Origin: Haloarcula mannanilytica
Lineage (GTDB): Archaea; Halobacteriota; Halobacteria; Halobacteriales; Haloarculaceae
Direction: 5' to 3'
Assembly: GCF_005406125.1 (NCBI RefSeq)
Contig: NZ_BIXZ01000001.1
Span: forward strand, 1,054,001-1,118,000
DNA length: 64,000 nt
Positions 19,231 through 43,294 of this stretch are shown piece by piece. The notes below the pieces were generated by a model. It was not told the DNA's origin. It searched no databases and saw nothing but the letters and a program-made list of their open reading frames with translations. The translations under genes were made by a program, and so were the position numbers. How positions within the stretch are numbered: the stretch's first letter is position 1; every line of letters starts with the position of its first letter.

Positions 19231-19313
19231 GGGGCCAAGGCGGATTGTGAACCGGAGGAAGACGGTCGGACTCACGACGTTCGTCCGCTGCGACTTCCAG
19301 GGTTCAAATCCGC
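19231..19313 (-). repeat. Hairpin unit behind tRNA-Ile ending in a copy of the tRNA 3' end
   Basis: Read on the minus strand, downstream of tRNA-Ile, GCGGATTTGAACC (19301-19313) pairs with GGTTCACAATCCGC (19240-19253) with one bulge. GGAAG (19294-19298) pairs with CTTCC (19257-19261), and CGGAC (19283-19287) pairs with GTCCG (19267-19271) around an 11-base loop. The right arm continues into CTTGGCCC, so the unit ends with a near copy of the T-arm and acceptor 3' strand of tRNA-Ile itself. The same architecture follows tRNA-Leu near 43 kb. Confidence 0.6.
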
Positions 19314-19329
19314 TCGGATGCACGAGTCA

Positions 19330-19371
19330 TGTGCCACAGACCTGTCACTCTGTTTCTCGTTATGTGGCACA
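19330..19371. repeat. 9-bp inverted repeat between tRNA-Ile and its hairpin tail
   Basis: TGTGCCACA (19330-19338) and TGTGGCACA (19363-19371) are exact reverse complements separated by 24 bases. It lies just downstream of the tRNA in the direction of transcription and could serve as a processing or termination structure, or mark an old integration site. Confidence 0.45.
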
Positions 19372-19377
19372 GAATAG

Positions 19378-19451
19378 TGGGCCAACGCGGATTTGAACCG
19401 CGAACCTCCCGGTTATCAGCCGAGCGCTCAACCTGATTGAGCTATTGGCCC
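19378..19451 (-). tRNA. tRNA-Ile (GAT)
   Basis: A 74-base gene without an intron. Acceptor GGGCCAA pairs with TTGGCCC followed by discriminator A, the D-arm is GCTC...GAGC, and the anticodon loop CTGATAA gives anticodon GAT (isoleucine AUC/AUU). The T-arm GCGGTTCAAATCCGC is perfect. CCA is not encoded. TATA-like DNA (TTTTCAATA) lies about 25-30 bases upstream on the minus strand. The region downstream carries an unusual hairpin with a second copy of the tRNA 3' end. Confidence 0.95.
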
Positions 19452-42696: not shown

Positions 42697-42904
42697 GCTA
42701 ACGTAACACACCGCCATCGTGAAGTGTAGCTATAATAAATCAAGGGGTTGTTTCCAAGTAATACTTTCACAGAACCTGATGCAGAAGGCGTATAATCCGC
42801 CGAAAACAGCAGTCTGAGTTATAGCGTCGGCGTGGCACATTTGCCATAGTTATCACAGGCATATCGAAAGGACCATTCATCAGCCCCCGCAGAGTTCAAT
42901 CTGC

Positions 42905-42989
42905 GCGAGGGTAGCCGAGCTTGGCCAAAGGCGGTGGGCTTAAGACCCGCTCCCGTAGGGGTCCGTGGGTTCGAATCCCATCCCTCGCA
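42905..42989 (+). tRNA. tRNA-Leu (TAA)
   Basis: 85 bases with the long variable arm of class II tRNAs. Acceptor GCGAGGG pairs with CCCTCGC, discriminator A. Anticodon stem GTGGG/CCCGC with loop CTTAAGA gives anticodon TAA (Leu UUA/UUG). Variable arm TCCCGTAGGGGT is followed by T-arm GTGGGTTCGAATCCCAT. CCA not encoded, no intron. A short GCAGA/TCTGC hairpin (spanning the start) precedes it. Its 3' end is repeated twice downstream. Confidence 0.95.
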
Positions 42990-43024
42990 TTCTGTGACGA
43001 GTTATCACGAGGAGCGATGCGAGC

Positions 43025-43092
43025 GGGATTCGAATCACGGAAATCCGGACGAAGTGAGGATTTGCATCGGGTTCGAATCCCATCCCTCGCAT
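43025..43092 (+). repeat. tRNA-tail hairpin unit A behind tRNA-Leu
   Basis: GGGATTCGAA (43025-43034) pairs with TTCGAATCCC (43072-43081). Inside it AAATCC (43041-43046) pairs with GGATTT (43058-43063) around an 11-base loop GGACGAAGTGA. The unit ends in ATCCCTCGCAT, the acceptor end of tRNA-Leu. See unit B and the tRNA-Ile unit. Confidence 0.6.
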
Positions 43093-43138
43093 GAATTCGC
43101 TCGAACAGTTGTGAGAGCGTGTGAAACGTTTGGATGGC

Positions 43139-43205
43139 GATTCGAACTACGGAAACGCGAGCAACGCGAGCGTTTGCATTCGAGTTCGAATCCCATCCCT
43201 CGCAT
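43139..43205 (+). repeat. tRNA-tail hairpin unit B behind tRNA-Leu
   Basis: GATTCGAAC (43139-43147) pairs with GTTCGAATC (43184-43192). Inside, AAACGC (43153-43158) pairs with GCGTTT (43170-43175) around an 11-base loop GAGCAACGCGA. Compared with unit A, two inner base pairs have changed on both strands (T-A to C-G and C-G to G-C), so pairing is kept. Ends in the tRNA-Leu acceptor end. Confidence 0.6.
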
Positions 43206-43294
43206 TCTGTGACGAGTGAACTGTGGGTCACAGATTCATCTGCGACTAGTCCTCTGAACTCCGTCCGTGGCACACACTATGACCCCGCTCGTCC

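Follow-up and report, generated by a model that had tools for sequence, protein, structure and literature searches.

Introduction

Transfer RNA genes are classic docking sites of mobile DNA. The usual attachment (att) sites of archaeal integrases are repeats of tRNA 3' ends (PMC8371274; PMC3119063). The SMR-A elements of Haloquadratum (HqIRS42/43/55) are non-coding, palindrome-targeting sequences of about 110 bp with inverted repeats; they have terminal repeats of their own and insert in IS605/PATE palindromes without target duplication (PMC3119063). In M. kandleri, the palindrome CGTTA(N)9TAACG is located about 10 bp behind about half of the tRNA genes (PMC5217627).

Here we describe units located behind tRNA genes of Halobacteria, which seem to be an undescribed kind of repeat that apparently moves from tRNA to tRNA. 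No published description of the units was found in the open-access literature, and in two H. volcanii transcriptome papers the passages on tRNA trailers make no mention of such units.

Results

The tRNA-Leu(UAA) Locus

Coordinates are positions in the window, the whole 64,000-nt stretch of DNA analyzed (Haloarcula mannanilytica, NZ_BIXZ01000001.1, 1,054,001-1,118,000, forward strand). Behind the tRNA-Leu(UAA) gene we identified two units of ~105-110 bp each, and the other tRNA gene of the window, tRNA-Ile(GAU) (19377-19451, minus strand), also carries a unit. The features are as follows:

42905-42989, plus strand: tRNA-Leu(UAA) (ARAGORN; Rfam RF00005, 51.9 bits)
42969-42989, plus strand: repeat copy D1, the 3' part of tRNA-Leu from the T-loop to the discriminator
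42990-43024, plus strand: left part of unit 1, trailer and first-hairpin/linker region, resembling the post-tRNA flank TTCTGCGACGAGTG... of unit-free relatives
43025-43081, plus strand: second hairpin of unit 1, outer stem GGGATTCGAA/TTCGAATCCC (from folding and covariation)
43071-43091, plus strand: repeat copy D2, exact, tRNA-Leu from the T-loop to the discriminator base
43092-43131, plus strand: left part of unit 2, with trailer, first hairpin CGCTC-GAACAGTTGTGA-GAGCG (43098-43119) and linker
43132-43198, plus strand: second hairpin of unit 2, outer stem GGATGG-C-GATTCGAACT/AGTTCGAATC-CCATCC (from folding)
43184-43204, plus strand: repeat copy D3, tRNA-Leu 3' end, exact
43205-43217, plus strand: flank TTCTGTGACGAGT, a close version of which (TTCTGCGACGAGTG) directly follows the tRNA in unit-free relatives
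19232-19376, minus strand: unit of tRNA-Ile, outer stem GCGGATTTGAAC.../GTTCACAATCCGC, then the tRNA-Ile 3'-end copy CCTTGGCCC

In each unit at the tRNA-Leu(UAA) locus, a first hairpin after the trailer and then a second hairpin precede a copied tRNA 3' end. The first-pass annotation of this stretch had reported a 34-nt repeat and two hairpin units closed by the tRNA 3' end, and its positions all proved right: GTTCGAATCCCATCCCTCGCATTCTGTGACGAGT at 42969-43002 recurs with 100% identity at 43184-43217, and the 21-nt tRNA end is found exactly at 43071-43091 and 43184-43204. The length of 34 nt is that of the 21-nt tRNA end plus the shared flank TTCTGTGACGAGT, and in relatives with or without units a close version of this flank follows the last tRNA-end copy. 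The inner stems and the two 11-nt loops were likewise recovered as described, in units that are larger than the annotation had drawn them. In unit 1 the inner stem is AAATCC (43041-43046)/GGATTT (43058-43063) with the loop at 43047-43057, and in unit 2 it is AAACGC (43153-43158)/GCGTTT (43170-43175) with the loop at 43159-43169. Both loops are themselves structured: tandem GA/GA (in unit 1 GG/GA) is followed by two base pairs and then a triloop (hairpin tops GG-AC-GAA-GT-GA in unit 1 and GA-GC-AAC-GC-GA in unit 2).

Outside the inner stems, a long outer stem forms with the T-loop/T-stem copy: positions 43025-43034 of unit 1 pair with 43072-43081, and positions 43132-43148 of unit 2 pair with 43183-43198. 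The outer stem of unit 1 is the complement of the T-loop and T-stem of tRNA-Leu. Both second hairpins fold better than shuffled sequence (z of -3.9 and -5.0). The small first hairpin of unit 2 is present in intact versions in the units of relatives as well. With the Rfam 15 covariance models, the tRNA alone scored above the cut-off at this locus and the units were unmatched. The predicted folds have bulges of 1 and 3-4 nt flanking a short helix; the EndA substrate, the bulge-helix-bulge, has 3-nt bulges with a 4-bp helix between them.

Two open reading frames span the tRNA and the units (42896-43273, minus strand, and 42934-43212, plus strand), and would encode spurious small proteins with motifs that include ARDGIRTR and GFESHPSH. 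Similar reading frames occur in other arrays (L222, L466) and are a likely source of false annotation in haloarchaea.

Distribution and Attachment to tRNA Genes

The arm pattern GATTYGAAN{22,50}GTTCRAATCC was searched with the reversed pattern as control. It is present in 228 of 242 Halobacteria genomes, covering 69 of 73 genera; the reversed pattern has no match in any of the 242 genomes, which places the observation beyond chance. Similar tails thus occur behind other tRNA genes throughout the class, contrary to the refuting condition named in the annotation, that other tRNA genes lack them. In other classes of the phylum, five of about 240 genomes have one or two matches. The source genome has nine sites and no match to the reversed control; all nine are behind tRNA genes, namely those for Leu-GAG, Leu-UAG, Leu-UAA (twice), Lys, Gly, Pro, Asp and Val. 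When one core family was compared with 84,980 species, the matches listed were Halobacteria records only, and they included Haloferax (several species), Halorubrum, Natrinema and Haloarcula (one).

In 15 genomes, 100 of 101 sites are preceded by a tRNA at a distance of 18-454 nt, in many cases of 50 nt or less. A search with a 26-nt core, made without any requirement for the arms, placed 33 of 34 copies behind tRNAs of many kinds, on the same strand. The exceptions in the two sets (L236/L347 among the 101 and L306/L348 in the core search) have tRNA-Val-like 3'-end remnants or copies in front, where ARAGORN detects no tRNA. In the named genomes, 79 of 83 sites lie within 700 nt of a tRNA; of the others, L374 and L412 are at the edge of the examined piece, L435 is without a detected tRNA and L419 is 2.1 kb away. 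In a pattern-free count, 19 of 44 tRNA genes in the source genome and 17 of 34 in a second genome are followed within 500 nt by a repeat of their own 3' end; no such copies lie upstream of tRNA genes in either, and a control genome from another class gave 0 of 27.

The units are fitted to the tRNA that they follow. In 87 of 100 units, the acceptor copy is matched better by the host tRNA than by 95% of the ends of other tRNAs. For the variable base 57 of the T-loop, agreement with the hairpin arm was scored 263 times and disagreement 15 times (278 cases). Aberrant T-arms are matched as well, both for tRNA-His (TTCGATTCTC, matched as GAGAATCGAAC...GTTCGATTCTC) and tRNA-Val (TTCAACTCC, matched as GGAGTTGAAC...GTTCAACTCC). 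It is nearly certain that these gene-free, tRNA-bounded, host-fitted double hairpins form a class-wide family in Halobacteria.

Two irregularities were observed among the copies. One inserted T-loop base (GTTCACAATCC) is found in some tRNA-end copies of different tRNAs (L298, L310 and window positions 19241-19251, minus strand). At L466, near-identical tandem tRNA-Asp genes, each with a unit, lie beside single N letters, which may reflect a duplication or an assembly artefact.

Anatomy and Shared Cores

The units form direct-repeat cassettes of roughly 80-160 bp. The order within a cassette is a copy of the host tRNA 3' end (T-loop to discriminator) with a short trailer, hairpin I, a linker, hairpin II and the next copy. 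The outer stem of hairpin II forms with the closing tRNA copy of the unit, at its T-loop and 3' T-stem strand. For the sequence upstream of hairpin II, the better pairing partner in 126 units was the preceding tRNA end with its trailer in 71 and the following copy in 12, with 43 ties. This preference indicates that the tRNA end in front provides the base of hairpin I and the copy behind provides that of hairpin II. A left arm that is an inverted copy of the whole tRNA 3' end had been considered and was dropped, since the pairing test indicates two separate hairpins, in which the outer part of the arm matches the trailer of the tRNA itself and the inner part matches the T-loop. In one degenerate unit (L028; G024:C6:43015) the inner hairpin is apparently inverted and cut at the loop, suggesting an inversion between two T-arm stems.

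The inner cores of hairpin II fall into a small number of shared families, in which tandem GA pairs and GNA triloops are frequent. The motif GA-NC-NNN-GN-GA is found in 128 of 270 distinct units. Among near-identical core pairs, 531 of 621 are behind different kinds of tRNA, and ten such pairs occur within one genome; in these ten the left parts are unrelated (identity 0.29-0.55). Near-identical cores are on the same tRNA in 14.5% of cases, vs 4.4% by shuffling, so inheritance and exchange both act and part of the pattern is vertical.

The combination of shared cores and unrelated left parts in one genome would also suit a passive mutational product, in which template switching and short-homology recombination between T-arms make and exchange units and palindrome correction refits the stems, with neither a dedicated enzyme nor a function. 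The T-arm offers a short, near-universal homology (GTTCRAATCC) for such events, and recombination would yield repeat-bounded loss. However, T-arms are universal whereas the units are nearly confined to one archaeal class, core families are conserved over dozens of genera, and copies upstream of tRNAs are lacking. We regard a purely passive origin as improbable.

Structural Constraint

The annotation had offered a structured RNA as one meaning of the paired changes in the stems, and as a structure this stands up. An alignment of 14 units of one length has 98.7% of its cells paired and double changes at six pairs; the double-change cells number 26, vs 9.0 by shuffling, and the signal is lost on sliding. 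Because the 14 rows are related, this control falls short of a strict probability. Of the two strands, the tRNA-sense strand has the better predicted fold in 237 of 270 units with RNA parameters and in 234 of 270 with DNA parameters, a bias that would fit either an RNA or a folded DNA strand.

If the units act as RNA, they would be part of the pre-tRNA transcript, where the two hairpins might guide trailer removal or termination or form a small RNA whose 3' end resembles that of a tRNA; the outer stem would stop the copy from misfolding with the tRNA. Their position directly behind the tRNA, the compensatory changes, the better-folding sense strand and the pairing of hairpin I with the trailer of its own tRNA all point this way. 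On the other hand, only some 50% of tRNA genes have a unit, and sister species differ in carrying 0, 1 or 2 units at the same tRNA, so that the unit is dispensable. About 13% of units have a decayed acceptor copy, and the triloop is GNA in 94 of the 128 units with the motif, a type that is stable in DNA rather than RNA. Judged from sequence comparison and folding, such an RNA function is on balance unlikely. A pure acceptor mimic for tRNase Z, also put forward earlier, is weakened, as the acceptor copy outside the T-arm is often decayed (L207, L211, L214, L220).

Array Dynamics

The comparison of close relatives that had been proposed for the region downstream of tRNA-Leu shows zero, one or two units at orthologous tRNA-Leu(UAA) genes of the same genus, with the same outer flank. 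The occupied loci L013, L015, L016 and L018 end in a TTCTGCGACRASTG-type flank, which directly follows the tRNA in the unit-free relatives L017, L021, L022 and L024; the array in the window ends in TTCTGTGACGAGT, a close variant. As the same flank follows either the last copy or the bare tRNA, the change is exact at the tRNA-end repeat. Recombination between repeats would also yield exact loss, so exactness does not establish the polarity.

The spacing from repeat to repeat is 80-159 bp in 307 of 337 cases (about 91%), with a peak at 100-140. At L014 (G014:C1, about 983.5-984.1 kb), copies of the tRNA-Leu end are 578 bp apart and enclose A+T-rich sequence with a 77-aa membrane-like open reading frame on the opposite strand, for which no Pfam match was found. 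A gene-carrying cassette was considered here and rejected: relatives of the reading frame are present in 8 of 116 Halobacteria genomes, none within tRNA arrays.

Given that archaeal integrases usually have tRNA 3'-end repeats as their att sites (PMC8371274; PMC3119063), the arrays might be leftover att sites of tRNA-targeting integrated plasmids or proviruses whose interiors were deleted. The uniform spacing, the conserved double-hairpin interior and the stems fitted to each tRNA speak against such remnants, as does the lack of the unit in free viruses and plasmids. In the phage and plasmid records searched it is essentially absent, and in viral contigs a stricter pattern had a sole match (L096), where the unit is behind a tRNA-Glu. 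This origin is very improbable.

A Possible Recombination Mechanism

Among the three meanings that the first-pass annotation had suggested, "tiny att-bounded elements" fits best: tRNA 3'-end repeats bound units of narrow size range, the repeat is the exact point at which species gain or lose whole units, and near-identical cores are found behind different tRNAs. The fit is partial, as ordinary att remnants leave the host-complementary outer stem unexplained. We tentatively favor, at somewhat less than an even chance, folded cassettes that may recombine at the T-loop boundary through a trans-acting factor, because of the repeat-bounded gain and loss, the shared cores and the single-strand fold.

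The units would be non-autonomous palindromic cassettes, gained and lost by recombination within the tRNA 3'-end repeat, with a boundary that we infer to be close to G53/T54, where the T-loop begins. A putative trans-acting recombinase would recognize hairpin II in its folded, single-strand form, as the integron integrase does attC, and loss might also be possible through simple recombination between repeats. Ordinary double-strand cycling by an integrase would not work on a circle of only ~105 bp, and the proposal has to assume a single-strand form. The near absence of units from phage and plasmid records and from viral contigs counts against this reading, as does the vertically inherited part of the core pattern. 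Cores would pass between tRNAs, and the outer stem would then be refitted to the new host, either by selection for the hairpin or by template-switch correction. To our knowledge, no known mechanism moves a core to another tRNA and also adapts its stem and repeat to that host. The recombination, RNA and template-switching readings all need an added step, selection or palindrome correction, to account for the refitted outer stem.

Two further origins were rejected. Reverse transcription with a stop at modified T-loop bases was dropped, as the match to the host runs through base 57. A mobile element that brings its own tRNA end accounts for the trailer result, but not for near-identical cores behind different tRNAs.

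A more far-reaching form of the recombination proposal is that Halobacteria have a previously unknown system of mobile cassettes: tRNA 3' ends would be universal docking sites, folded hairpins would be recombined, and the repeat and outer stem would be copied from the host tRNA at insertion, so that any tRNA gene could be fitted without breakage. We consider this version doubtful.

Discussion

A whole archaeal class keeps gene-free, host-fitted hairpins downstream of a large fraction of its tRNA genes, and this seems to have escaped notice. Should the units move, the recombination system behind them would have to tailor its ends to each target; as functional RNA, they would be a new tRNA-linked RNA family. 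Loci exist in tractable genera (several Haloferax species and a Haloarcula among the matches listed), which makes the question directly testable. Annotation would benefit as well, since reading frames across the units can be recognized as spurious small proteins.

The units share with the SMR-A elements their haloarchaeal hosts, similar size, inverted repeats and lack of coding sequence. They differ in being located behind tRNA genes and in having arms that vary with the host tRNA, and the description of SMR-A sets them apart. The M. kandleri palindrome is likewise found just behind about half of an archaeon's tRNA genes, but is a short motif of one species without a copy of the tRNA end. Host-fitted stems are part of neither description. 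As with REP/BIME sequences and the hairpin ends of IS200/IS605 (RAYT/TnpA), the units are short, imperfect intergenic hairpins with a strand-specific fold; REP sequences, however, are scattered and have fixed feet, whereas the units are confined to tRNA 3' flanks (33 of the 34 core copies) and have stems that follow the host.

In form the units resemble integron attC sites: a direct-orientation array, an imperfect folded hairpin at each cassette end, outer and inner stems, an unpaired spacer and a G/TT boundary. The attC core is GTTRRRY/RYYYAAC. The arms of the units, GTTCRAAT/ATTYGAAC, have the same form and depart from this consensus with a C at position 4; moreover, integron cassettes carry genes whereas the units are gene-free, and the repeat is a tRNA end that differs at each locus. 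Finally, archaeal integrative elements also have the tRNA 3' end, from the T-loop on, as a direct repeat; there the repeats bound kilobase elements that bear an integrase, whereas here they bound double hairpins of ~105 bp.
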